Source: Pyxicephalus adspersus (lineage: Eukaryota; Chordata; Amphibia; Anura; Pyxicephalidae). From it: a stretch of DNA of 64,000 nucleotides. Positions 3,652 to 59,900 of the stretch are shown piece after piece (position 1 is the first letter of the stretch; each line of letters begins with the position of its first letter). The DNA lies in the NCBI RefSeq assembly GCF_032062135.1, contig NC_092861.1:144176566-144240565 (forward strand), in the 5' to 3' direction. A program made the position numbers and the translations under genes. The notes below the pieces were generated by a model. That model was not told the origin of the DNA. It saw only the letters and a program-made list of their open reading frames with translations, and searched no databases.

Positions 3652-4150
3652 CCACAACAAAAATACTCCATACAAGAAGACAACACTTTATCTTCCCTTG
3701 TTGGATCACTGTCATTTACTTCTACTAAGACAGACAGAGATGTCATAATCATTGTGCATATGAAAGTCCTGGAATAAACATTTCAAGCTTCTATCACATC
3801 GTTCACTCCACTCGGACATCTGGAAACACCAGCAGTACGTCCAAATTGATATCGGTCTCACTATCAAATCACTTACAAATAGCAGTTTGGTATCAAAAGG
3901 CTCTTAATGCAGTAAGAAGCCCCAGCAATATAACTAAGTCTCCCCTTACCCCTGAGGCAGCCCGGTTCGGGCGAAACATGTCGGGTGGGACACCTTACCG
4001 CCATCGCTAACCTAGTATGATACTAAACTATGTTGCTATTTTTTGCGAAACTAGTGGTTATATGTTGGCCTAGGATTTATTTATAGAAACACAGCTCCTA
4101 ATCTTTTAAGTTATGTTGTTGGAACAATAAAATTTTGTGTTTTTAAATTT
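3652..4150 (+). mobile_element. Probable Penelope-like retroelement fragment
   Basis: This block contains the hammerhead-like motif at 3948-3986, followed by ~165 bp ending in GAACAATAAAATTTTGTG, a polyadenylation-like stretch. Penelope-like elements are known to carry minimal hammerhead ribozymes in their repeated ends. No reverse transcriptase or GIY-YIG coding is visible; the upstream part is lost in the gap. Boundaries are approximate and the class assignment rests mainly on the ribozyme motif. Confidence 0.45.
3948..3986 (+). ncRNA. Minimal hammerhead-ribozyme-like motif
   Basis: Order on the plus strand: stem I strand ACCC (3948-3951), core CTGAGGC (3952-3958), stem II GCCCG-GTT-CGGGC (3960-3972), GAAAC (3973-3977), AT, then GTC (3980-3982), and stem I partner GGGT (3983-3986). 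Stem III is only AC/GU around a 2-nt loop, in the palindrome ACATGT. Such short stem III forms are known from Penelope elements and act as dimers. Position A9 is C here, so this copy may be inactive. An extra A lies between the core and stem II. Confidence 0.6.
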
Positions 4151-4757: not shown

Positions 4758-4825
4758 TATAAATTCTATATATAGATAGTATATATTCTATAAATATAAA
4801 TGTAATTGTAAATTGTATTATATAA

Positions 4826-4868
4826 GTTCCTGACGAAGCGGTATATATTTCCGCAAAACGCGTTGAAC
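4826..4868 (+). ncRNA. Minimal hammerhead-ribozyme-like motif
   Basis: Stem I GTTC (4826-4829) pairs with GAAC (4865-4868). The core CTGACGA is at 4830-4836. Stem II GCGG/CCGC (4838-4841, 4851-4854) carries an AT-rich loop. AAAAC (4855-4859) replaces GAAAC, so G12 is A. Then come GC and GTT with the predicted cleavage after T4864. Stem III is the palindrome ACGCGT. The G12 change would be expected to abolish or weaken activity. Probably a decayed Penelope-type ribozyme; the AT-rich tail to ~5030 may belong to the element. Confidence 0.6.
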
Positions 4869-6026
4869 ATTTGATTAATTGAGAACACTCCAAGATATGC
4901 ATTTATCTGTTACTGTTTTTATACAAATGTAATTTTTTTTATCTTTGTACAAAAAATGATGTTTTTACATTTTTATTGATTTGAGTATTTGGCATTGAAT
5001 GCCCTAAAAGTCCCATTCCTTTTCCGTTCTTTTCTGTACTAATGTTATTTTTGGGATGTGGCATGAAGTAATTTACCAGTTGGGGAAACAGCTATTTGTA
5101 ATTATAGTATATATACTATATCTATATAGTTCTCATGTAAAAGGTTCAAAAGTGGAACAATAAATAGCACATTACCAAAACGAGATCAAAACAAAAAAAT
5201 CTTTGGGTGGAAGAATTCTTAAGGTCAGGTCACGCTGTCTTAGCCTCCCATTATAAACAATTTAAATAATTCCTTAGAAAAAAAATCTATAGATAAAATC
5301 CCCATCACCAGCTGACATGAAACGAACATGAAATATTAACATACACTTACATATATTCATACATAAGAAATGTTTTCTCAAGCGCTAGATGAAATATTTG
5401 TTATACAACCATGATTTATCCCGCATGGCACATATAAAAATTTAATTGACAAATAATGAAACTCCTGCAGTTGCCTAAACATTTATGGTTGATTAAATAT
5501 GACATGGTCTGTGATTAAAGCCCCGTTCAGTTAAAATATAAATAAATAAATCAGCTATTTTTAGACATTTCCATCATTTTGTGTCTCACAAGCAACACTG
5601 GAAGAATAAATAATTTTCATGGGCGCCTTGCAAATAATAATCGATTAAGTTTAATTAATTGCTGTTTTCATCTTTGACATAATAGCTGTCAGAGCGCTCT
5701 CCTCCTTGTCCCCTTACTTGTGCTAATAACCCGGCCGTAAGAGTGAACATATGCTTTTCATCAAGTCGGGTTAACATTTGGTCTTGTGTTGAATATGGGT
5801 TAATGGTAGCTATGGTGCTAGAACCCATGAACATGTTGGTTGAACCCATGAGCATGTTGGCTCGGTTTTAGGATCTGTAGATGAGAATAGGGCCATGTTA
5901 CCAATAGCGGTAAGTTTGGTGTGCGTTTGCCACTTCCTCATGCCAGGGAACTGCTGCCTCTTGGGAAAAACAGAAGGCACCAAAGTACTACAAAGTACAG
6001 GAATCTTGCTTTATTGTAAGAACACT
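4869..6026. other. Unique-looking AT-rich segment; conserved non-coding candidate at 5440-5790
   Basis: No repeat family from elsewhere in the window matches here. Between 5440 and 5790 there are several homeodomain-type cores (TTTAATTAATTGC near 5650, AATCGATTAAG near 5638) and preserved CpGs. That is the look of a developmental enhancer, but no comparison was possible. The ORF frames are short and unremarkable. Confidence 0.25.
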
Positions 6027-6230
6027 GGACCTGATTTATTGAAGCTCTCCAAGGCTGGAGAAGATAAACTTTCATCAGTAAAGTTGAGTGATCTAGCAAA
6101 CCTGGAATGAATATGGGCCAACAAATAGCAAATGACTTTTAGGAAATCCTTTCCAGGTTTGCTAGATCAACCAGCTTCACTGATGAAAGTGTATTCTCTC
6201 CAGCCTTTAAGAACTTAATTAAATGGAGCC
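6027..6230. mobile_element. Palindromic MITE, family A
   Basis: Starts GGACCTGATTTATTGAAGC and ends in its near reverse complement. The arms carry the family signature TCCAAGGCTGGAGAAG and TTTCATCAGTAAAG with mirrored CTTCACTGATGAAAG. Almost the entire ~200 bp folds back on itself. It has no coding capacity. Sister copies: 9773-9999, 23391-23614, 27063-27276, 42183-42386, 54301-54373, 55761-55983 and 59678-59900. Confidence 0.85.
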
Positions 6231-6690
6231 AACTGTCACAAAATGTTTGGAAAACCAACGTTTCATGGTAGCCTATGGTCCCTTTCTCAAGGCAACATTG
6301 TGGACTATGTTGCCTTAAGGAAGAGACACTGCGCAGGAACAACTGGGTCAACAAAATTAGGAGACACTGCAGTCCAGGGCTCATACAGCCCACTGGGCCC
6401 CTCCGACCTTCTATTCCACCAATGCCACCAAAAAGCTTCTCAAGAGTAAAAAGCTACTGAGACAGAACAACGTTAAATAATTACATTTATCATAAATTAT
6501 AGGTGATTGGAAACGAATCTTGCAATTTAGAGCAAGCTATTTATTTAAAAAATGTATGTGTGGGTGATGTTATCGTCTTCCAGTAAATATTACAATTATG
6601 TAGACCGTGTCTAAGAGGTGATGCAGAAAAGTCAGCTCACATATGATTTCTGGTTCAGGAACCTATAATACAGAGGGTCATATAATGGAA
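6231..6690. other. Unassigned segment
   Basis: Contains short overlapping frames on both strands (for example 6243-6449) with no family signature. No further elements recognised. Confidence 0.35.
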
Positions 6691-8790: not shown

Positions 8791-9772
8791 ATAGCGTGGG
8801 TGTGATGGTCAAGTCTCCACAAATGTTTGTGAGAGGGTTAACCCTTATCTTTGACATAGACTGGCCATAAAGTGATCAGGCTGGGTGTCACCAGGCATCA
8901 GTGCCATCACATGGCATGAGGAAGAAGAGTGACTTGGGCTTTAAATATTGGGTATACTTCTCTGTATCTGAGTGGAGCAGTAGGGGAACAAATAAAGAGT
9001 ACATATCTATTGGCGGAGGGTGAAGATTTGCTTTAGGACCTGGTTGCTATATGTTTCTGAGCTCAGCATATTATGCTTTGCCATATATTTCACGTGTTGG
9101 TAGTAAGAGCATGGTAGAATCCGGCAAGGCCTGAGCCGTGCTTGCAGAAGCCGATGAACTGGGTATTTCATGTTATTAACATTTTTTATATTTTCTGAAT
9201 CAGATCTGCTGCAGTAACCATCGATGTGTTAAATTGAAAGCATAACGGACTGTTACCACAATCATAAATAAGTAAATATAATTACAGTACTTATACCAGG
9301 TGATGTATTAACGCTGCCTAAGTGTGCAAACCGGTTGCCAAAAAAAATGCAGTGAAACCAATATGATTTTTTGCTTTCATAAAAAAAACTTCTATTTCTG
9401 CAATATAATGGCACAAATGGAATTGGGATCCGTAAATCTGTGGAATTATTCATGCTTTGTTCTCTTGTAACGCTGTGCTAAAGTAGCGGGAATCTCCGAA
9501 GGAAGAGGACGACTTTACTGATCGTTATTTTTACAGCTGACAAAACTACAAATATGACTACAAATCCAAGCGTACTATATTGTGTGCATTATTCTTCATC
9601 TCCTTGTAAAACAATGGCACTTCTTTTTATTTTTCCATTAATAGGTTCATCTTCTACCAGTGTTAAAGAAAATGTGTAGTCAATAGCATGCATGCCAAGT
9701 AATTTATAAGTGTAACACTTGCCTAAAGGTATTTATTACCTCTCACAGAGATCACAATACCTTCCCTGACAG
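8791..9772. other. Unassigned segment
   Basis: No recognised repeat, RNA or coding signal. Frames are under 65 codons. Confidence 0.35.
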
Positions 9773-9999
9773 TGGGCCTGATTTATTAAAGCTTTCCAAG
9801 GCTGGAGAGGATACACTTTCATCAGTAAAGCTGGGTGATCCAGCCAACCTGGAATGGATTTCCTAAAAAATATTTAATTTTTGTTAGCAAATGTTTTCAA
9901 TCGTGGACCAGATCCATTTCAGGTTTGCTGAATCACTCAGCTTCACTTATGAAAGTGTATTCTCTCCAGCCATGGGGAACTTAAATAAATCAAACCCAT
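9773..9999. mobile_element. Palindromic MITE, family A
   Basis: Opens GGGCCTGATTTATTAAAGC, and the right end mirrors it (TTAAATAAATCAAACCC). Both arms contain CAGCTTCAC / GTAAAGCTG and the CAAACCTGGAATGGAT type inner motif. The full fold-back is retained; only the centre (about 9870-9910) is unpaired. Confidence 0.88.
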
Positions 10000-10689
10000 T
10001 GCCTTTATCTGTTTTCTCTCTAGATAAATAATCCAGGATCCGCTTCTGCTTTCTGGACAGAGATGCTAGCACAACAGGGAGATGAAGTAAATACTTTCTC
10101 CTTTCTGCAGCAGACTAATTACATCATTATAACCAAGGCAAAATCATTGAATAGAAGCTCCGGGATTGCTTTTATTAATAAAAGGTAAAGTTATTTTAAA
10201 AATTTTTTAGATATTGAGGCATGTCAAGAACAATGAAATTCAAATTCAAATTTACATTAAAGGTAAACAAACTGCTGTATGTTTATAAAGCGCCATAAGC
10301 ATGTCCATGCTGAAAATGTATTATACATTACTCTTTACACATGAGATGATTATCTCTGAGGTTTTGACCTCCATATCTTTGGACAGCACCAGAGCTCTGC
10401 AAGGAATGATGGGTTGGTAACCCACGTGGCAACTGGACTATTTTGCAGCAAGATGACATCAGGTCTTGATCCTCAAAGTTACTCCACCAATGAATGGCAA
10501 TAACAGGGAGGCCAAAGAGTGGAAAAAGAGAGGTGATAGTCAAGTTTAGACAGAAGACAGGGCAGGCGGGAGGTAAGAAAAGTCAGTGTCTAGGCAGTGC
10601 TCAACAAAAACACTGAGCAAAGACTTACCATTGTCCAGGCAATTATCAAGGTAGATGGCAATATTTCATATTCATTCATGAGTCTAGCC
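10000..10689. other. Unassigned segment
   Basis: AT-rich with no repeated words from other parts of the window. The minus frame at 10328-10543 has no domain signature. Confidence 0.35.
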
Positions 10690-15051: not shown

Positions 15052-15418
15052 TTGGAAGATTTATTTAGTTTCCACAACTGCTACCCCAGCAAAGATTCAT
15101 TTAGATAGATAGATTTAAAGACAAGCTTACATTATTTTTTTGTATAAATTGGATGGAAATCAAAGTTTCCATGGATGTTCTGTTAGTCCCGACACATTTA
15201 GCTAGAGAAAAGGGCTTCTTCAGGGAAAGTAAGGGTATCAGTTACAATAGATGTTCCATTCCATAGGCAAAACACGTTGGGACTAACAGGACATTGCCGA
15301 AACATTGATTTTCATACATTTATCAAAAAAGTCTGTAAGCTTGTCCTTAAATCTATATTGCTAAGACATTGAATCGTTGTTTGAAATGCAGTTGTGGAAA
15401 CTAAATAAGTCTTCTGGA
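15052..15418. repeat. Long inverted repeat, probable head-to-head Penelope-like remnants
   Basis: The left arm (15052-~15208) and right arm (~15262-15418) are reverse complements with moderate divergence. Matching words include TTTAGTTTCCACAACTGC with GCAGTTGTGGAAACTAAA, GACAAGCTTACA with TGTAAGCTTGTC, and CTGTTAGTCCC with GGGACTAACAG. Both inner ends carry hammerhead-like 3' halves (CGACACATTT on the left, AAACACGTTGGGAC on the right). Penelope-like elements often occur as inverted pairs. Palindromic origin by another mechanism remains possible. Confidence 0.75.
15185..15228 (-). ncRNA. Degenerate hammerhead-like motif
   Basis: On the minus strand: core CTGAAGA (15217-15223), AGC...GCT stem II with a long loop, TAAAT in place of GAAAC, then GTC followed by GGGAC (15186-15190), which can pair weakly with the upstream CC. 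The G12 equivalent is lost, so cleavage is unlikely. Its position at the inner end of an inverted-repeat arm supports a Penelope-like origin. Confidence 0.4.
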
Positions 15419-19190: not shown

Positions 19191-21159
19191 GTATGACACA
19201 GAAAAGCAAAGGCTTGCCTTCACACAAAGACACTGTGAGGAACATAGTAAGTTATCAATGTGGAAAAGATCAATCCACAGTTATCATTGGGGGCATTCTG
19301 CTTCCAATTTCTAAATTCAAGCCCTATAAATATATAGTAACTGAATCAACATAAAAACCAAGAATTTCTCTGGGAGCTGGTTATTTATTCAATGTCGATG
19401 CATTTGTGGCATGGACTTTGCCAGTAGGATGCACTGCAAAGAAAAGTCACTGCCTGGCTTTGATTAAACAAATCCAAGAAATGTTTCATGTGACTGGCTG
19501 CTGGAAGGAGCCAGGAGCAATGCTTTATGGACTGTACAAATAATGTACTTACTCTTTGAAATGTTAGCATGTTTTGAACATAACATCTATATTTTTTTAT
19601 TTCTTCTACTTGACCCACTGATCTGCACAAAAGGAGCAGCATTGAGGCTAATTGGTCAGCACTCCTGCAGGTCAGTGATTCAAATACAGAAGGGTCAGAA
19701 CAAAAGTCAGGTTAGGATTTCTAGAAGAGAGTTAGCAAAGGCATCAACTTTAATTCTCATAACTAGTTTATTTAAACCTCTATCTATATCATATGTATGC
19801 TTGGAGTGATTGATTAAACTTATGCCTAGAAAGCTGATAAATCCTCAACTGGTTCTTAAGGAAAAAGCTTGGGTAGGCTAAATTGAAATAGAAAGTTTCT
19901 TTTATTTCCTGCTATAAATCAAAGGTTTTATTACAATAACATTTTCAAACTGAAGTGTAAAATCATCTTTAACATGCAGCCCTCACCCCAACAAGAGATT
20001 CTTCTCTTTCTCAGAAGCTTTGCTTTACCAGATCAAGACCCTACTAGAATTTTTTACACACACTTACAGCCTTACAAAAGCCCCCAACACTCAGACTTGG
20101 AGCCCTACAAAAGTATTTTGCCTGGTCAGCGACCCATACAAGTTTCGCCCCTTTTCAGACTCAACCAGCTCAACCAGAATCCTTCACCAAGACTAAGGGT
20201 CCCAGAAGGGTCCCAGAAGGGTCCCCCTACCAGAGTCTGTGTACTATCAAAGCATTATTGCCAAATCAGGCCCAGTCTCCTAATAACTCATACTTTATCT
20301 TTGTGATTATTAGTTTTACATACTGATAGTAGGTGCCACAATCAGGATTTTGATGAGGAATACTATTATATTCCATGATAGTCCCTGTTCAGATGCCCGC
20401 CTTTGTGTTCAGATGTAGGCTATGTCAATCGTGGGCAGGGTAATGATTTGGAAGAGATATGGGACCTGACTTTAGGCTAGTATACTGATCAGGACAGAGC
20501 TTAGTCATAATTCCTCATTTTCATATTAGGCTAGTGGGTAAAGGTATTTAGTGAGAGGATACCCAGGACAGCACACACTTTACAGAATAAAGAGTCAGGG
20601 AAGGCATCTTTTCAGGAAAGTTTTCCTTTCTCACAATTTTCTTTAAGGCCCAACATTAGGACTTTGAATAGAAGAACTCATATACTAGGACGCTTTTCAC
20701 AAGATACAATAAAGATTCGGTAAAGATTGGTGTGATAATGGGGTAAAGTGTGAGCAACAAGTAGGCAATAGGGATCATTTGGAAGTCAAATTCTTTAGCA
20801 TTTAGGGTAAAAATTTGCTAACATTTTAGAAAATAGGTGTTAAGAGTCATTAAGAAAATATTAGTCAACCAAGAATGCAGATTATCAAATAATTATCATA
20901 CTGTAAGATGGAAAAAAGGAGGAAGAACAACTGATTTTCTCTTGATAAATTACGTAAATGTATAGTGGAAGAGAAGAAAAAAATAGGAAGAGAAGGAGGA
21001 GGAAGACACCTTTCTTAAATAGGATCTTGCCACACCTCATGCCACACCTTACAACATTTGAAATTGAAGAAAAATAATATATGTTCATATATCAAAATAT
21101 AATATGTTCATAATATGTCTAATCTATGATCAACATAGACCATAAATCTCCATTGCATA
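19191..21159. other. Unassigned segment
   Basis: AT-rich with a short local duplication at 20195-20225 (GGGTCCCAGAA repeated). Frames at 19385-19642, 19543-19809 and 19974-20306 have no recognisable domain. No element ends were identified. Confidence 0.35.
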
Positions 21160-21195
21160 CCCCTGAGGAAGCCTTAAGAGGTGAAACGCGTTGGG
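21160..21195 (+). ncRNA. Hammerhead-ribozyme-like motif with an intact core
   Basis: Best copy in the window: stem I CCC (21160-21162) with GGG (21193-21195); core CTGAGGA (21163-21169, C3 U4 G5 A6 N7 G8 A9 all acceptable); stem II GCCT-TAAG-AGGT (21171-21182); GAAAC (21183-21187); GC; GTT with predicted cleavage after T21192. Stem III is the palindrome ACGCGT, suited to dimer formation. Stem I is short and an extra A lies before stem II. Activity is untested. Confidence 0.65.
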
Positions 21196-21515
21196 AAAGC
21201 AGCAATACACGGGTATATAACGTGGTTATAAGCAACTGACTGCAATGACACCTACTTAGTCATTTAGGCCTAATTAATATATTGTGTTTAGCTTTTTATG
21301 TCTAGTATACCATGACTAATAATACCCTGATGAAGTAATCAGGGGGTGATTATATATATTGTATACTACATTAGCATTGATGTATGCTTTTTCTCATTAC
21401 GTTTTATATATGATTCTGACTGCACTAATTACTGTAATTGCATTTCACCAATACATATTAAGTTTGCCAAACTAAACATCTCTTTTGTGGTTTTTAAAAA
21501 CCCATGGTCTGTCTT
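21196..21515 (+). mobile_element. Probable Penelope-like tail downstream of the ribozyme motif
   Basis: About 300 bp of AT-rich sequence follows the motif, including CCTGATGAAGTAATCAGGGG at 21327, a second degenerate core-like word without the GAAAC half. It runs up to the start of the polypurine tract. No coding is visible; the assignment follows from the ribozyme motif and is uncertain. Confidence 0.35.
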
Positions 21516-21523
21516 TTTCTTCA

Positions 21524-21539
21524 GAGAGAGGAGAGAGCG

Positions 21540-21573
<34 letters not shown>

Positions 21574-22346
21574 GGGGGTAAAAGAGAGAGAGAGAATGAG
21601 GGAGAGAGAGAGCAACAGAGTGTAAGTGAGAAAAGGAGAGAGACAGAGAGAGAGTAAGAGGGGTATAAGAGAAGCAGAGAGAGAGCAACAGATAGATTAT
21701 CAGAGAGAGAGAGATAAGATAATAAAGAGAAGGAGTAAGAGAAAAAGAGAGAGCAACAAGGTATCAGAGCGAGAGAAAATAAATATATATATAGAGAGAG
21801 AGAGAGAAAGGGGGATATAAGAGAAGGACAGACAGTGTCAGAGAAGGAGATGAAAATAGAAAGCTGGAGAGAGAGAATATACAGATGAGAAAAAGATAGC
21901 AAAGGGGGGCATGAAGGAGAGGAAGATAATGGGAGATAATGAGAAGAAAGGATAATGAGAGTAAAACAAATAGAAGGAAAAGGTAGGTCTGGGAAGGAGA
22001 GATGATTAAGAAGATGATAGAAACAAGGAAGGGGGAGCGGTAAATGAGAAAAAAAAAGGGTAAGGAGGGAGAAGAGATGGAGGTAGAGGTATAGTAGAGG
22101 TATATGTCTTTGATGAAGGGTGAGAGAATGCAGAGAAAAATAGAAAGAAGGAAAATTGGTAGAGGAGAAAGGAGACAAAAAGGAGATAGGTATGAGAGGG
22201 AGCAATGGAAAGGGAATGAGAGTGAAGAGAAAGAGAGAAATGGAATGGGAAAGAAAAGGATACAAGAAGGAAGATGAAAGAAAATAGATAGGAAAGATAA
22301 AAGAAAAATGGGAAATAAAAAAAGTAAACAATATTAGAGATTAAGA
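21524..22346 (+). repeat. ~820-bp polypurine tract with (GAAA)n and (GA)n
   Basis: The plus strand is almost only A and G, with a clean (GAAA)n block at 21540-21571, many GAGAGA runs and few pyrimidines. The complementary strand is therefore a stop-poor polypyrimidine stretch that gives a 300-codon Ser/Leu/Phe/Pro-rich frame (21429-22331), an artefact of composition. Mirror-repeat purine tracts can form triplex (H-DNA). Confidence 0.95.
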
Positions 22347-23390
22347 GAAAAGTATTACTGAGATTTCCTGTTCCAGCAACAACCACTATTGTGGATTATC
22401 AGCCTCTAACTTTTACAAAAAATCTCTTAATTGCAACCCCAATTGTCCATTTGGTTACTGTCAAACCCAAAGTAAAACAAAATACATTCACAAAAAATAT
22501 ATTTAAAACTTGTGTGTGTTTTAGTTATGTAAAAAAACAGCAAAAGAGATCAAACATCAATTTTCTCTTAAATAGAAAAATAATACAAAAGGCAAAGGAA
22601 ATGAAAGCAGTAAAACATCCTAAGCTGTCCCTTTTTATCATTTTACCCCCCTTCCACCCCTACAGACAGAATCCCCAGGGAGCGGATAGTTACAGCTGTG
22701 ATCTAGGGCTGGTGTTGCCTCAATGAAATGTACTTACAGGTCTTTGGAATCTCCCAAGAGTTTGGTGCAGTTTCAAGGACAAAGTGTCTTAAAGGAAGTC
22801 TTGCTAGCATACGACAGCATTCTCATCTGATTACAGAGGCACCCTAGCAAATGTGCAGAGACAATGGAAACTTCCCTGATGAAGAGATGGTCTTGTGTGA
22901 AAATTTCAGGGTTAACGTCTTGCTTAGTGAACGCCGTGATATGCTGGCTGGTTTACACACATAAACATGCAGGCAGCTGATGCTGGTTTGCAGCCTTGCA
23001 GAAAGAAGACCTTACTGAAAAACCAATGGAATCACATTTCAGCTCTTAGTGCCAGGCATAGGAAGGCAAAACATGCTTCAGCAGCTTTTACACAATTGAC
23101 AATTAAAGCGTAAGTGTGACTGCACTTTGGAGTAGGTCCCCCGCTTGTCCCCTTCTCAAAATGATCATTTTCTATTAAGATTTTTTTTTTCTGTTTTTGG
23201 CATAATTAGCGTGTGATTTATCTCTGTGGCCTAGAACATGCTAAAATTAAAACCATGAAGCCCCATCCAGGGTTTTTTCTTAGTAGGGTTTACCAGGGTT
23301 TATCACTTTTATTCTGGTGTAACCATTTCCTTTTTCTCCAATGCAGACTGGTGGTGAGGCTCCCACTTCCATATACATCAATGATGTATT
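22347..23390. other. Unassigned segment
   Basis: Mixed AT-rich sequence. A CTGATGA...GAAA spacing at 22876-22902 resembles a hammerhead core, but stems I and III do not form convincingly. The 111-codon frame at 22391-22726 has no signature. Confidence 0.3.
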
Positions 23391-23614
23391 GGGCCTAATT
23401 ATTTAAGGCTCTCCAAGGCTAGAGAGGATACACTTTCATGAGTAAATCTGGGTGATCCAGCAAACCTAAAATGGATCTTGTCCAGGATTCAAAACGTTTG
23501 CTAGCAAATAGCAAATGACTTTAAAGAAATCCATTCCCGGTTTGCTGGATCACCCAACTTCACTGATGAAAGTGTATCCTCTCCTGCCTTGGAAAGCTTT
23601 AATAAATCAGGCCC
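23391..23614. mobile_element. Palindromic MITE, family A
   Basis: GGGCCTAATTATTTAAGGC at the left and TTTAATAAATCAGGCCC at the right. The arms pair over about 85 bp with few mismatches (CACTTTCATGAG / CTGATGAAAGTG, GGTGATCCAGCAAACC / GGTTTGCTGGATCACC). ATT lies next to both ends, possibly a short target duplication. Confidence 0.9.
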
Positions 23615-23871
23615 ATTGCCTCATTTGCGCCATCTTATAGAAAAAAAAATAGGGGCAGTTCAGTACCACCTGTCGCTCCTTATGTACCAGTGCCATGGTG
23701 TGTGTAGCCAAGGTGTGTGCTGGCATGGTGAAGTCACTGTGACCCACAAGGGTATTCTTTTTCTTATAGCAAGTCTTAGCTTAAATCTTTGAAACTCAAC
23801 AGAAGTTCTGAATCTTTTCTAAAGAGAGCTTTAACGGTCACTGCACATGTGGATGAAGTGATTCCTTGGTC

Positions 23872-27062: not shown

Positions 27063-27276
27063 GGGCCTGATTTAATAAATCTTTCCGAGACTTGAGAACA
27101 TAAACTATCATGGGAGAACCTTGGTGTTCCTGCAACCCTAGAATGAATTTCTTTTTGCTATTAGTTGACAGATTTTAAATCCTGAACCGGATCAATTCCA
27201 GGTTTGCTGACTCATCCAGGTTTTCCCATGATAGTCTATCTACTCCAGGCTTGGTGAACTTTAATATATCAGACTC
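27063..27276. mobile_element. Palindromic MITE, family A, subfamily A2
   Basis: GGGCCTGATTTAATAAATC at the left and TTTAATATATCAGACTC at the right. Arms use the A2 wording AACTATCATGGGAGAACC mirrored by GGTTTTCCCATGATAGTC. The inner CCAGGTTTGCTGA word is shared with subfamily A1. Confidence 0.85.
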
Positions 27277-28320
27277 AAGATGTGACCGTTCTTTAACTCC
27301 CCGATTCACTGTGGTGCTTTAAGGATGCCACAATCATTGCCAACATACCAGCACCATGCATACCATAACTATTGTTTCCTGTTTAGGTCAGCAGGCTTCG
27401 CATACCACTATAAGCCCTGACCCTAGCTCCAGTCCTTGTCACAGGCCCATTGACTTCCAGAAGTCCAGAAGAATTTATGTGCCATGGTTTGCCGATCAGT
27501 CTGAATTGCAAATATTTTGCTAAAAAATATTCTATTTCATGTTAAATGTGTTGTACCTCTTTATACCTATTGTGTATGCCAATTTTGCAATGATTTTATA
27601 AGGGGCAGCAGAAAAGATTTAGGGTCTCAATTTCAGATACTTCCACCTGTTTAAAAAGCGGTCCACATCGCTTCTCCATTATGGAACAGATCGGTGTGTT
27701 GATTGCAATCTGTTGCAATTTAGTTTATAACACTTGCGATAAAGTGTGCTCTGCTATTGAATGTACTTACCTTTGTATGAATGGATGACAGCTAAGTAGT
27801 AGCATGCGGTAAAAAATAAAGATTTTTCCTAAAAACTAATTTGTTTTGGTTCTACCTGACCACTGTTTGGGTCCATTCACATGACTGTATTTTAGAAGGT
27901 AATGTATGTTATTAAAATAAACATTGCCATTAATTTTAAAAGGAACAAAAAGCAATGCACATTCATTTTTGCACAACACACACTGATGAAGCTGCCTATG
28001 CCTTGTGGTGCACTGCAGGTCTATTCTGGGGAGCTAGAGACCCATTCAAAGTGAATGACCTCCCTTAAAGTATTGCATGTTAATATGCATGATGTAACAG
28101 TTTAAATGCATGCTTAGGGGGGGTTTCCTATGCAAATCCCATGGAACCAATATCATTAATGGCAAATGTAAAAAAAATAAAAAGAAAAAAAAAGAAAAAA
28201 TGCCAAAGTTTAGTTTGACCTTTCCAATGAACAAAATACATCATAACCCTTTTGGAAGGAATTATCTGTGCTTGGTATGTTTATATTGTGCGATGTTACA
28301 TTACAATTTAATCCAAAGAT
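27277..28320. other. Unassigned segment
   Basis: AT-rich. A patch at 27940-28015 (AAGCAATGCACATTC, CTTGTGGTGCACTGCAGG) resembles the TGCA/GGTGCA-rich family H seen near 47400 and 61700. Poly-A-rich run at 28168-28200. No gene recognised. Confidence 0.3.
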
Positions 28321-28430: not shown

Positions 28431-31340
28431 CACATTTGCTGCTCTAAACATCCCCCCACTCCCAATACCACTTCTGCTGCCTGTACCACAGATCTCGCCT
28501 TAATTCTTCTAACCAGTGCCTAATGATTGTGTATCTCTGGGACAGGAAGTGAAGCGGTATCTCTTTCTGCCAATTACCTTTACATACATTTTATTTTGTA
28601 TTGTTGTGTAGCCTTAATTATGGAAGATCTTCTATAAAAACTTATGGGATACTTGCTTGCTTATCTTTGCTTGTATTTGACTCTTCTGTTGGTAAAAAAA
28701 CATCTTACATTAAGTAAGTTAATGACAACAACAACCATATGATAAAATAACAAATATTAAATCCATACTAAAACTCTCTTTCCTTTCCATTTTAGAGAAC
28801 TATAGCAGCACACCTAATTATAACAAAACGAGAACAGGAGGAAAAAAAATTTACAAGGTTCTGTGGGCCAGGACTCTATACAGTACTATCTAATAATTAG
28901 GGCGCCATGTAAGCACCTAAAATTTAAATAAAAAGAATAATAACACAAAAATCATACATTTAAATGGACTGAATCTGACCATTAAGTCCACCTTTTATAG
29001 GACTTCCTAATGCGTGCTCTTTTCTTCTAAGTGGATTTATAGAACGGTAGTTAAAGATTAACAATCTGATTGTTTCTATTTAAGTAGAATCACTTTCCTT
29101 GCATAAAATCACAATATGCTCTGAACCTAATAAAATGTGTGGGACTCTCTGTTCTTAACATTGTAACCCAGGCAGCTTTGAATGCACCACTTCTTTAAAA
29201 CCAGAACTGTCCCTTTTGATTCCTCAGGGGATGTCCTAGGTCTTCTGGGCTGAACACATATTGTGAGTGTAGGGAAGTATGGCTCTGCCTCCAAGGGGAT
29301 GTTTTCATGTTGTTCTCAGTTGCAGTTTAAAGGTTGGCCCAGAACAAAATAAGGAAGCAGGATAGGTGAAGGGACTATATGACTGGGTACCAGGGGGAAA
29401 CATTTGATTAGGGGTTAAAGTATAGGGGAAGGGGAGGAGGATAATGGTGGAGTGATAGCGGTGGTCTAAAGTGCTGAACAGGAAGTTGCGGGCATCAAAA
29501 GTTGGGTAGTAGTGTAGTGAGTTTCCCATCCACCTACCCTTGTTTATGATGGGGTATAGCTTGGAGGTATTGTGAGGTGATGGCAGTTGGCAGTTGGGGT
29601 CCTGGGAAAGCAGACGTCTTGTGGATGCTGGAATGTGGTAAAGGACTCATGTATTTATTTTGTTGATAAAGGTAAATTTATATAATTTGTTAATACTGTC
29701 TCAGTCAGTTTTGTTGTTTGTCCTTGAGGGTTTATGTATGAGGTTGGCTGGGGCAACATTTGAGGATGAGGACATCAGAGCTACCCAAGTAATGGTGCCG
29801 AGAGTGGCATTGAAATCATTGGTGAGGGATAGGAAGAGGACCCTGTGGCATTACATAACTGGCCTGGAGACTTCAGAAAAGATACAAACATCAAAAAAGA
29901 AAATACACCCAATGGAGGCTAAAATGGTCGGGCCGGGGATGGCCGGGGAGACGATTTGCCTGAAAAGTACAGAGCCCAAAGTCAGGCTTTTAGCTGATAA
30001 AGTACATTAAAAACATGATAGTTCCAATGAAGTACAATAGCTGCCAGGCTCTTGTTTTTTTCAGAACAGATAATGACATCCAATATAACTTTTATTGTTA
30101 TTAAACCTTCTATTTCCTGGTACAAGACCGGCATTTTGTTTATCTGACCATTCATATTTATGCCAGGGACGCCCCCACATCTATTTTTCTAACTGGTGAA
30201 AAACAGCCTGGTAATATATAGACTTGCCTGTGTTTATTATAAACCATCTCAAAGGATATCTCCAACTCTCCTACAATTTCTTTGATTTATGTTCAAAAAC
30301 ACACAGGGCATGAAATGATTTCAGCAACCTTACATTTCCCTCAAGAGCGCGGCGGCCAGCCGATATATTCCGAAACATCATGTCGGATCCCTCGTTATGT
30401 CTCCTTCTTAAATAAATTTATGATAATCAATTATATCTGCTTCAAAGGAACTGCCACTGGATTCCCCATCACAAAATCGGTTTGAAAAAAAGTGAAATAC
30501 TGCTTCCCCTATATTTAAGTTACCACGGGGGGAATTGTGCCCATGCTGACATCCAAATTGAAAGAAAATGTGCCAAACTCAGCAAAGAACAGCATCTATC
30601 AAAAGCCAGTAATGTCAAAGGTGCTGGAAGAATCAGTAACCTTCCTTCTCATCATATGCAGAAGATTCATGGCCAGTGAGATAATGCGCTCATGGCGTTT
30701 CAAAAAGAATCGGGTAACTAGCAGCTGTCTGCCCATTTCGCAGGCCTCCCCTCAAACATTCAGCGCTCTATGCATATTGATCAGGTTATCACTGTACAAT
30801 TTGCTCCAGCTGGTAGAAAATGCAAAAACACTCACACGACACAGCCACAAATGACCCTGTACAAGTATCTTGTAGGTGTCATGCATATGTGGCCAAGCTG
30901 GTATTGAAAGTAACCCCTACTTTCCTAAAAAAATTAAATAAAATTGAAACAACATTTTGATAAACAAAAATGAACTTCCACAAAAGGCTTTCCCTGCAAA
31001 AAAAACCCATGATATGGGTGGAAGTCGCCACCCAAAGTTGGAACCCACAGTGCAGGATTCCACACTTCAGGGAGTGTTAAACTCCCCTGTCCCTTGCAGA
31101 GCATCTTGGTTCTTCCAAACAACTTCCAAGTCATTACTGTACCCCATATAAACATTGGGTGCATTTGGAGGAACCACGGAGCTCAGTTGGGGGACACTGG
31201 AACAACACACCAGGGAGTTTTGGTTAAACGGGCAGGGAGTTATCATCAGTAATGACTGGCAGTAAGAACAGCTTGGGAAGTAGGTATTTATTTTTTTACA
31301 ACCTTTTGAAAAATGTTATGTTTGTGGTCATGGTTTAAAC
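28431..31340. other. Unassigned segment
   Basis: Nearly 3 kb without a recognised element. Frames at 29660-30010 (116 codons) and 30537-30854 (105 codons) have no domain signature. 30500-30860 is of balanced composition and could be conserved non-coding DNA, but I cannot test this. Confidence 0.3.
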
Positions 31341-35780: not shown

Positions 35781-36403
35781 GTAAAGCGTACCTAAACTCA
35801 GAATTTGTACGTCACATAGAAGGGTAGACAATTCTTTTATTTAAAGTAAAAATTTTGTTTGTTAGTGTTTTTTTAAGTGCAACACCCTTTTTTATAAAAC
35901 AAAAAAAGTTGCAGCACCGCCCCCTTAATTCTTGAATGCCTAGGCAATTAAAAATTAATGGAAGTGCAGAGCCTCCTACATTACACATACTGGGAGGCTA
36001 TTAGCTGCTCCTTCTGCCATGCCGAGCATCAAAAGCATGCGCAGAAGGAGCCCTTTCATCAAGGGTTTTTTCCCTAATCTACGTCACCCGATTTCGCACC
36101 TGTGCAGTGCGAGATCAAGTGACGTAGGAAGAAGAACACAGAAGAAGAGAGGAGAGAATTGCATCATTTGGAATTCCCCCTGCCCCGGGCCAAAGACAAA
36201 TACCGGGACGACGTGGGACCCAATGGAAGAAACCATCGGTGGAACGAAGAATTGCAGCATCTGGCATTCCCCCTGCGCCGGGCCAAAGACAAATAACGGG
36301 ACGACGCGGGACCCAATGGAAGAAACCATCGGTGGAACTGGGGGATTGAAGGTAAGTGTGATTTTTTTGTTTTGGGATAGTTTTGGGTTTACTTCCACTT
36401 TAA
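35781..36403 (+). mobile_element. TTAA-type element, family D1, with internal duplication
   Basis: Starts GTAAAGCGTACCTAAACTC and ends TTTACTTCCACTTTAA. It is the longest D1 copy here because a ~93-bp segment is tandemly repeated (ACGACGTGGGACCCAATGG at 36208 and ACGACGCGGGACCCAATGG at 36301). CpG-rich. The open frame at 36019-36477 crosses this duplication and is not a gene. Confidence 0.78.
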
Positions 36404-37094
36404 GGCAAATGCTCCTTCATTACAAATGTCCCGCTGCTGGCCAATTTTACATTGTTATATCACCTGCAGTCTACTAATTCGTAATGGGAGCTTGATAGAA
36501 ATCGGTAAGTGGCAGGTCAGTTTTGCATCAGCAAGAACAGGGACAGACTCAGTGAACGAATAGCTAAAACATTTTTTCAAACTGAAATGAATCAGTTTGG
36601 GGTGCTGCTGTATATAAGCCAAGCACTTCCACAGCCATACATATGAGTTACCTGTGTATGTTGGCATTAGGTCTGTGAAAAGCTCACTTTTCTGAAAAAC
36701 TTTGTTAAGCTTTGAAATATCTACACCAAAGAACACAAATGTAGTATTTTTCTGCTTACCAATCTAAACATTTTCACTTGATGATTTTGTCAGTAATTGT
36801 CTGTTATGCTCACTAACTTTTATGTATATATGAAGAGTTAGCATCACTCCAGGGCTGCTTGCTCTATCCAGTCCTGATCTTCACATAGCATAATGTCTTA
36901 TTTGACAGATAAGAGAACCTAATCTTTTAGCTTCAGTTTTATTTTCACTTACAGGTTCACCTCCTTTCCCCAACCCTATAATAAGCACACTGATATACTC
37001 ATCTTCTTATCACTCTGCCTAACTTGATGGACTTGTGTCTTTTTGTTACCCTATGTTACTTTGATATATGTTAGGACTATGGACCCTGACAGAT
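36404..37094. other. Unassigned segment
   Basis: AT-rich; no element or gene recognised. Confidence 0.35.
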
Positions 37095-42182: not shown

Positions 42183-42386
42183 GAGCCTGATACAAGGTTG
42201 GAGAAGATATACTTTCATCAGTGAAGCTGGGAGATCCAGAAAACCTGGAATAGATTAACAACCTGGAACTTATTAGCAAATGTTTTAAAACTTGGACCAG
42301 ATTCATTCCAGGTTTACTTGATCACCCAGCTTCACTGAGGAAAGTGTATCCTCCCCAGCCTTGGAGAGCTTTAATAAATCAGGGCC
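42183..42386. mobile_element. Palindromic MITE, family A
   Basis: GAGCCTGATACAAGGTTGG at the left (with a deletion of the TTATTAAAG part) and GAGAGCTTTAATAAATCAGG at the right. Arms pair through CTTTCATCAGTGAAGCTGGG and CCCAGCTTCACTGAGGAAAG. Confidence 0.85.
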
Positions 42387-43644
42387 AAGACAATGTTGGA
42401 TCTTCCATAGTGACCTCTTATTGGTTGTTCAGAGATGTTACATGGAATGAAGGAGAGTGAGAGTGTAAACTCTGAATTGTAAGCTTACACAGTGCTAACA
42501 TCTCTCACTTCCAGAGCAGAAGGGAAAGGCAAATTCTTTGATTTTTTTTTGCGGTCAGCAATTGCAGACAAAGTACCCCTTCCCGCCCATTTCAAAAATT
42601 GATGCAAGATGTTATGCAAAGAATTTCTTATTCCTCTCTCTTGCAAGCTTCCTACCCATCAATATCTGGATAAGCCACCTGTCTCAGGTAGTTCTTCTTC
42701 CTCAGCATATGTCACCTCTTTGCCAATGACGTCACATACAATGAAGGAGAAGTGGCCACTGCCTTATGGTAATGCACTGTACATGTATGTTGCGGTAAAT
42801 TCCTTTCATTGTTAATTGCACCCTAATGCACATATATAGCAGGTCACAACACACGGATGCAAACGCCTTGTGGTCACACTATTTTATTTTTGCATTGAAA
42901 TATATTCACAGCCCATTTAAAAGGAAGGAGTTCCTAATGCAGCAACTTTGGCACATAAAAATGTGAAATGCGTTAAACTGCAAAACGAGGCGGTACAATC
43001 GTTAAAGTTAATGGAATAGAATTCTTTTTACCCTAGCTGTACAAACACACAAACAGATTGACTATATTGCACATTATCTGTTATGTTCCCATGATCAACA
43101 AAATTGATGGCACCTTGAAAAAAACAGTGGCACGTCCCATAGTAAAGTACGTGAAAATGTTGCATTTTAGTGCACACTTGCACACTTGCCTATTAATGGA
43201 TTCTAACATTAAAAGGCACATATATTGTGTTGAAAACTAAAAGGTTCCATGGCAAATTGTTTTGGAGATGGAAGGCGGCCATTACTTTTTTATGATAACT
43301 TCACCACAGGGGGGCTCTGCTCTGTTCAGCCTTCTTTTTTCTGCTTTATACAGCAGCTACCCGGCTTCTAAATGCAAACAGACAACAAAGCTTCGCTGTG
43401 CAGAATAATGTACCGCCATATGTTTTATTGAACAATTATAGAAACACAAAAAAAAAAGTACAATGGGTTCTGCTTACTAAACAGGGGCAGCTTCTAAAAG
43501 TGCAGGAAAGGAAAAGTGCCGCCGTCCAGATCAAGCAAAATGTATTTGGAGGAACTCTAATTGCATTTTTTTCAAAAAAAGTCCTTGTGGCTTCCGATTA
43601 TTTAGAGGTTCCTGCAAATGCACCAGTCGTATGGATGATTCCTT
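42387..43644. repeat. Unassigned segment with TGCA-rich family H words at 42770-43235
   Basis: GGTAATGCACTGTACATG, CCTAATGCACATATATAGC and related words occur at 42770-43235 and recur at 43660-43935, 47390-47700, 56040-56130 and 61690-62130. I read this as an old, scattered repeat family (H), boundaries unknown. The rest of the segment shows nothing recognisable. Confidence 0.3.
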
Positions 43645-55589: not shown

Positions 55590-55760
55590 TATGCAAGAAT
55601 CAGTTGATTGATCAATGATTGAATGTTTTAGTAAGAAGAAAAGAGAATAAGAAAGAATAAACTAGTTGTTTTATGTCTATCTTCCTTTTTATCTTACTTT
55701 TTGGTAGAAAATTGAATTCCTTAAAGGCCCATTGGGCATACTGGACCATCCTGGTATAAT

Positions 55761-55983
55761 GGGCCGAATTTATTAAAGCGCTCCAAGACTGGAAAAGATA
55801 GAATAGTATGGGAGAATCTGGGTGATCAGGCAAACCTAGAACAGATCTGGTCCAGGAATAAAAACATTTGACAACCAATAAAAAACTTGTTTTTAAGAAA
55901 TCTATTACAAGTTTGTTGGATCACCCAGGTTCTCCCATGTTATCCTATCATCTCCAGTCTTAGAGACCTTGAATTATTCAGGT
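55761..55983. mobile_element. Palindromic MITE, family A, subfamily A2
   Basis: GGGCCGAATTTATTAAAGC at the left; the right end CCTTGAATTATTCAGG mirrors it loosely. Arms share GGGAGAATCTGGGTGATCAG and GGATCACCCAGGTTCTCCC. Confidence 0.85.
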
Positions 55984-59425: not shown

Positions 59426-59677
59426 TAAAGAGTTAAAGTTAACCTTTATAACTTTTGTATTTTTTTTTTAACCCAAGATTCCACCTGCACAAGCATCTTC
59501 CTTTTATAAGGTTGGTCGAATCTGAAGCTTTCGGTTCCCAAGTTTGCCAATGTTCGAGTTGATTCAGAGTCCAAATTAGAATACCGTTAAAGTCAATAAA
59601 GGAAAAATTCTGACATACAGTGCATGCAGATGGGTAAATCTAAAACAATGGCAGGTGCAGGATACAGCTCAGCCAAT
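59426..59677. other. Unassigned segment
   Basis: Short AT-rich spacer. ACAGCTCAGCCAAT at 59665 lies immediately left of the next MITE and recurs at 59989, hinting that both belong to one older repeat. Confidence 0.3.
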
Positions 59678-59900
59678 GGGCCTGATTTATTAAAGCTCTC
59701 CAAGGCTGGAGAGGATACATTTTCATCAGTGAAGCTGGGTGATCCAGCAAACCTGGAATGGATTTCATAATAGTCATTTGCCATTTGTTAGCAAATAATT
59801 TGAATCCTGGACCAGATCCATTCCAGGTTTGCTGGATCACCCAGCGTCACTAATGAAAATGTATCTTTTCCAGCCTTGGAGAGCTTTAATAAATCAGACC
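59678..59900. mobile_element. Palindromic MITE, family A (best-preserved copy)
   Basis: GGGCCTGATTTATTAAAGC at the left; AGCTTTAATAAATCAGACC at the right. Arms 59678-59764 and 59814-59900 pair over ~87 bp with about seven mismatches (TGGGTGATCCAGCAAACCTG with CAGGTTTGCTGGATCACCCA). No coding. A transcript would form one long hairpin. Confidence 0.93.

Follow-up and report, generated by a model that had tools for sequence, protein, structure and literature searches.

At positions 21158-21197 of the window, the 64,000-nucleotide stretch of Pyxicephalus adspersus DNA analysed here, 40 plus-strand letters resemble a hammerhead ribozyme. Is this motif a ribozyme, of what kind is it, and what carried it to this place? 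Written as RNA, the letters are UACCC CUGAGGA A GCCU UAAG AGGU GAAA CGCG U U GGGAA, and they are assigned the usual roles of a hammerhead as follows. Stem I joins CCC at 21160-21162 to GGG at 21193-21195, followed by a mismatch at 21196. The two core blocks are CUGAGGA (21163-21169) and GAAA (21183-21186), and an unpaired extra A (21170) stands ahead of stem II, in which 21171-21174 pair with 21179-21182 around a loop at 21175-21178. The self-complementary ACGCGT at 21186-21191 supplies stem III, and the U at 21192 (T21192) is the candidate cleavage base. The window copy has the type I hammerhead core, CUGANGA ... GAAA, with every letter named in the initial annotation in place, and its stem III is reduced as had been described, to 2 bp within one molecule; between two molecules, ACGCGT could form 6 bp.

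Could such a resemblance arise by chance? The loose core CTGANGA-N6-24-GAAA had six matches in the 64-kb window against 3.06 expected, and 7 of 100 shuffles reached six, as a chance reading would predict. By contrast, the longer pattern CTGANGA-N6-24-GAAACGCGT had 6833 matches in the window's own 1.44 Gb assembly, a count in which a few places may appear more than once because either of two gap lengths applies, as seen for one pair, and a reversed-pattern control had 11. It is because of this genome-wide count that the motif is significant, the loose core being at chance level in the window alone. The count refutes chance resemblance and the homologous flanks of other copies also speak against it, so that we give this reading a negligible probability. 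The analysis confirms that the motif is real and part of a genome-wide ribozyme family, and that the genome of this one animal contains hammerhead relics in large numbers. The first 100 matches on contig C1 lie within 0-9.2 Mb, about 11 per Mb compared with about 4.7 per Mb genome-wide, and the density is perhaps higher near chromosome ends.

A covariance model (R1) placed this site first in the window with 48.9 bits (E 1.5e-13), a score that is partly circular in that the 72 genomic copies behind the model include the window copy. The same model found a second relic at 4825-4869 (plus strand; 30.0 bits, E 2.1e-7) and a third at 3947-3987 (plus strand; 24.6 bits, E 1.2e-5). Two doubtful relics lie on the minus strand, one at 15186-15228 (16.4 bits, E 0.0055, or 0.024 in a larger search) and one of only 24 nt at 29209-29232 (15.7 bits, E 0.0099, or 0.044 in the larger search). 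The site had been called the best functional-RNA candidate in the window, and its top rank agrees with this; it is however not the sole trace, as four further sites have E<0.01, two of them barely. Rfam at its gathering cut-off had no match anywhere in the window, and at E<=10 over 21000-21450 it had four matches, none to a hammerhead family. In 12 clean relatives, RF00163 (Hammerhead_1) was the sole ribozyme family among four Rfam matches at E<=0.5 and was found in two of them (L078 and L099), with 24.9 and 22.2 bits against a cut-off of 34. Hammerhead_1 is the best ribozyme family for the two relatives, yet falls below its cut-off, and the misfit lies at stem III and at the base of stem II.

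We then examined the stems. The 6-24 nt between the core blocks were free in the search pattern and so allow an unbiased test of stem II, which we applied to the 100 copies listed first on contig C1, with 97 different inserts among them. Contiguous helices averaged 3.16 bp, compared with 2.27 bp when 3' halves were swapped and 0.66 bp in shuffled inserts; none of 2000 half-swap trials reached 3.16, the largest giving 2.67 bp. This pairing depends on skipping the first base after CTGANGA, without which the mean drops to 0.46 bp. That base is A in 99 of the 100 copies listed, and stem II does not directly follow A9 as in the type I layout. The extra A, initially taken for a deviation of the window copy, is a trait of the family. 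Further core insertions are reported for hammerheads in the available text of PMC3088659, and the extra A is a variation of the type I layout of this sort.

Stem I was likewise free in the search, and we analyzed 72 distinct copies with their flanks, the window copy among them and the others fetched by the pattern. Its mean length was 2.5 bp in the 72 copies; swapping the flanks gave 1.69 bp, and no more than 2.03 bp in any of 2000 controls. Pairs 2 to 5 exceeded independence and pair 1 barely did (51 against 49.3), while pairs 6 to 8 had no excess in these copies. The stem I of the window copy had been described as short. The mismatch at 21196 does leave it short of one pair, but the stem has about five pairs in the family, and the loss is common to the window copy, its nearest relative L046, L053 and L060. 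Pair 1 is mismatched in 21 copies, 16 times as C-A, and the two bases at the cut are CG in 22, TG in 22 and CA in 15 of the 72; the C-A excess would fit CpG decay.

By the initial annotation, the motif was to be rejected if the genomic copies showed no covariance in stems I and II. Covariance is present. In an alignment of the 72 copies (A1; 71 distinct rows), 80.5% of cells pair compared with 66.1% after shuffling, the covariation score is 0.379 compared with 0.180, and double changes occupy 133 cells compared with 64.4; none of 500 shuffles reached any of these values. Two weaker measures gave 34 pair types against 30.0 (reached by 16 of 500 shuffles) and 10 pairs with a double change against 9.3 (reached by 211 of 500). 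When A1 was slid by one to three columns, the score was at most 0.164, and a slide of one column was enough to break the register. Both stems of the type I layout are in this way paired across 71 distinct rows by covariation; the invariance of the stem III ACGCGT in the 72 copies, like that of the core blocks, was fixed by the search pattern.

A hammerhead may have any base but G at the cut. Among the 6833 genomic copies, 148 had G, 746 had A and 5939 had C or T (controls 3 and 3). In the 72-copy sample, the counts were C 41, T 25, A 5 and G 1, and the window has U. On the assumption that decay turns C and T into A and G at similar rates, a G count five times below that of A speaks for selection in the source elements.

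These observations also bear on a reading in which the motif is the conserved, DNA- or protein-binding end of a repeat that happens to resemble a hammerhead, the RNA of which never cleaves. Two other blocks of the repeat unit are conserved as well, among them a 7-bp hairpin, CCCUGAU/AUCAGGG, at 21325-21344 on the plus strand (agreement 0.913, computed over columns 21324-21345; fold -12.0 kcal/mol, z -2.77), which counts in favour of this reading. Against it stand three observations that a ribozyme specifically predicts: diverse copies carry compensatory changes in each of the two stems, the register is lost on a one-column slide, and G is lacking at the cut. We consider the binding-site reading very unlikely.

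How well preserved is the window copy? Relatives were recruited with 21200-21525, a query that lies outside the ribozyme, and were found at 33 places including the window itself, the others being 68-87% identical. CTGANGA...GAAAC is kept in 9 of 20 aligned relatives. Across the 21 subfamily copies, column agreement was 0.878 for CTGANGA and 0.926 for GAAACGCGT, compared with 0.82 overall, so that the core columns are above average even in copies recruited without the ribozyme. The majority letters of the family form a stem I of 5 bp, in which 80.3% of cells are paired. In a 16-row alignment of the subfamily (of the 20 relatives, L047, L057, L058, L062 and L074 were set aside because they are truncated or lack a homologous flank), the paired fraction of cells was 85.2%, compared with 85.1% after shuffling, with no excess of covariation. 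The predicted lowest-energy fold of the window copy was not a hammerhead (z 0.62, 0.24 and -0.21 at three lengths), and two-strand folding did not favour one either; the 6-bp ACGCGU duplex was computed at -7.5 kcal/mol. Six relatives were also folded, and neither the folds nor their z-scores (-0.83, -0.31, -0.44, -3.19, -0.67 and -0.36) are counted as evidence. In L068, L067 and L104, stem II formed together with inner stem I and an outer helix; in L073 and L048, stem II and an outer helix formed with other pairs at the core; L052 formed neither stem I. With its relatives only 68-87% identical, we take the window copy to be an old, partly decayed relic, and it is probably inert.

The relic lies near the 5' end of an interspersed repeat unit at 21102-21524 (plus strand) that is common to the genomic copies. 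Comparison with these copies shows that the stretch at 20981-21074 (minus strand) is inverted and lies past the unit's 3' end in several of them. A long GA-rich low-complexity tract at 21525-22331 directly follows the unit, and a 300-aa open frame on the minus strand is its mirror.

What kind of ribozyme is this? By the accounts in PMC7761336 and PMC6155905, Penelope-like elements (PLEs) harbour type I hammerheads of a minimal form, in which helix III is small or missing, as the initial annotation had stated. They were described in 2014 by Cervera and de la Pena (PMC4209133) and in 2017 by Lunse, Weinberg and Breaker (PMC5785218), both as cited in PMC7761336; cleavage as dimers is stated in the 2017 title as cited there, and the same source calls their role in vivo a mystery. 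As far as these accounts go, the minimal PLE hammerheads and our family have in common the type I layout, a reduced helix III, thousands of dispersed copies and a palindrome suited to dimers, features that support the interpretation first given to this site. Compared with the minimal hammerheads as described by citing papers, the family here differs in the extra A of the copies listed and, in some copies, in signs of an outer helix. The site would accordingly be a member of a kind already described, and its surprise is modest.

We regard it as highly probable that the window site is a minimal type I hammerhead, present as an old copy and carried in the terminal-repeat-like part of a Penelope-like retroelement. 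Cleavage, dimer formation and role are here drawn from published work on such ribozymes. The RNA of active source elements would self-cleave immediately behind the base that precedes the 3' strand of stem I, here U21192. Two copies would most likely pair through ACGCGU into the 6-bp stem III and cleave as a dimer, because a stem III of 2 bp with a 2-nt loop within one molecule is too short to close. Cleavage of this kind would trim multimeric or read-through transcripts.

Two other systems offer comparisons. PAc, a Penelope-like element of Anolis (PMC11167929), likewise has a hammerhead with stems I and II in the PLE pseudo-LTR; it differs in that the ribozyme abuts the start of an ORF and cleaved only when protein was added. 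Metazoan retrozymes such as those of the axolotl, likewise an amphibian (PMC7229834), also have type I hammerheads, with a weak helix III and better cleavage as dimers, but they are direct-tandem units with RNAs of about 170-400 nt and canonical loop contacts, whereas the units here are longer and their pairs are mostly head to head.

We next looked for Penelope-like elements in this genome. Penelope-type GIY-YIG domains occur at three places, two of which Pfam confirms in the frames given. An RT-like segment without a Pfam match lies upstream of one of them, and we judge it PLE-like from its motifs. In a search for PLE RT-like sequences, the best 150 of 1705 candidates were scored; 20 of these 150 lie on contig C13 (14.4 Mb, about 1% of the assembly), which, at a guess, could be a repeat-rich sex chromosome. 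Pieces of PLE ORFs stand beside ribozymes in L067, L033 (only 28 residues) and L010, three of the 117 loci screened, and none was found in the 64-kb window. One of four stretches upstream of PLE RT held a ribozyme relic (L123), inverted relative to the ORF. Searches for ribozymes at PLE loci gave none in L042, none in L118/L119, a weak match in L044 (17 bits) and a chance-level match in L043, and no junction of a ribozyme abutting an ORF start, as in PAc, was found. The data are only suggestive of ribozyme carriage by Penelope-like elements in the Pyxicephalus adspersus genome, a link that we take mainly from the literature. The ORF pieces beside ribozymes and the relic upstream of an RT speak for the link first proposed; their rarity, at 3 of 117 loci, and the several PLE loci without a ribozyme speak against it.

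The arrangement of unit copies matters for an alternative that accepts the ribozyme but assigns it to short non-autonomous carriers of a retrozyme-like or SINE-like type, perhaps moved by PLE enzymes, rather than to Penelope elements themselves. Copies of the unit often lie head to head: in five such pairs, separated by up to about 1 kb, and in a further one with 4.3 kb between its copies, the left copy is on the minus and the right copy on the plus strand. Eleven ribozyme pairs were compared, and five of these were head to head (L026, L031, L033, L092 and L075, the last with little similarity). Two of the 11 converge, one related (L037) and one with only 16-bp matches (L008). The remaining four run in the same direction; among them, related units in clear direct tandem were seen only at L028 (L028:1496-2751), where 442 bp match at 96% identity and the ribozymes lie 1218 bp apart. 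A match at L035 was rejected as overlapping DNA, not similarity. The L028 tandem is a spot where a dimer within one RNA would be possible. A near-palindrome at L092:376-733, which resembles a microRNA precursor (RF03839, 40.6 bits against a cut-off of 120), holds a head-to-head pair of ribozymes that share their core and stem II.

A non-autonomous carrier would account for the scarcity of PLE open frames beside ribozymes, for the PLE loci that lack one and for the direct tandem at L028, and PLEs are proposed as movers of retrozymes in the reviews (PMC7761336, as far as its available text goes). Against it stand the prevailing head-to-head arrangement, retrozymes being described as short direct tandems (PMC7229834, likewise), a stem III reduced as in PLE ribozymes and the finding that all three ORF neighbours are PLE-like. 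We regard such a carrier as unlikely, although far less so than the binding-site reading, and prefer carriage by Penelope-like elements.

Finally, we examined the sequence beyond stem I for an outer helix. At one relative position, 17 of the 72 copies had at least five exact pairs past stem I, compared with 6.1 with swapped flanks (none of 400 controls reached 17; the largest had 16), and seven other relative positions had no excess of such helices in the 72 copies. The excess comes from helices whose 5' side exceeds the 3' side by 4 or 5 nt, with 10 helices against 1.74 expected. Offsets 3-6 pooled gave 11 of 72 against 3.1 (largest control 9). In a broad scan, the mean was 4.875 against 4.50, and the highest among 300 controls was also 4.875. 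Both the narrow window and the offset were chosen post hoc and tested on the same 72 copies, after 26 offsets had been scanned. The outer helix was not tied to the quality of inner stem I (6 of 36 copies with a good and 5 of 36 with a poor one). Among ten further ribozymes, of which L035 matches only in part and could be misregistered, offset 4-5 was absent; helices of at least five pairs occurred in two, with 8 and 6 pairs, each at offset -1. In the subfamily alignment, pairing was high and covariation was no better than after shuffling.

A bulge on the 5' side of stem I is where classical type I ribozymes contact loop II. The family might then not be minimal at all: with a two-part stem I carrying a 4-5 nt bulge on its 5' side, and with the extra A as a fixed feature where stem II begins, it could form a distinct, dimeric sub-class that lacks only stem III. 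The PLE hammerheads are described as lacking tertiary contacts in the portions of the reviews available to us (PMC7761336, PMC6155905). We marked the two-part stem I down because offset 4-5 is missing in the ten further copies and because the helix has no tie to inner stem I, and we hold the sub-class to be doubtful, if somewhat less so than a non-autonomous carrier. Thousands of natural variants in one genome allow a statistical reading of the cut base, both stems, the additional A of the core and the possible outer helix, ahead of any bench work.

Two further repeats were seen in the window. A repeat of about 220 bp matching L042:6354-6583 occurs at 6022-6237, 9768-10007, 23388-23622, 27067-27277, 42193-42388, 55760-55981 and 59671-59897; it matches on both strands at six of these seven places (on one strand at 55760-55981) and is therefore nearly palindromic, perhaps a MITE. 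At 36155-36338, two 93-bp tandem copies, a multiple of three in length and 93% matching, sit within a 152-aa open frame (36019-36477) without a Pfam match.
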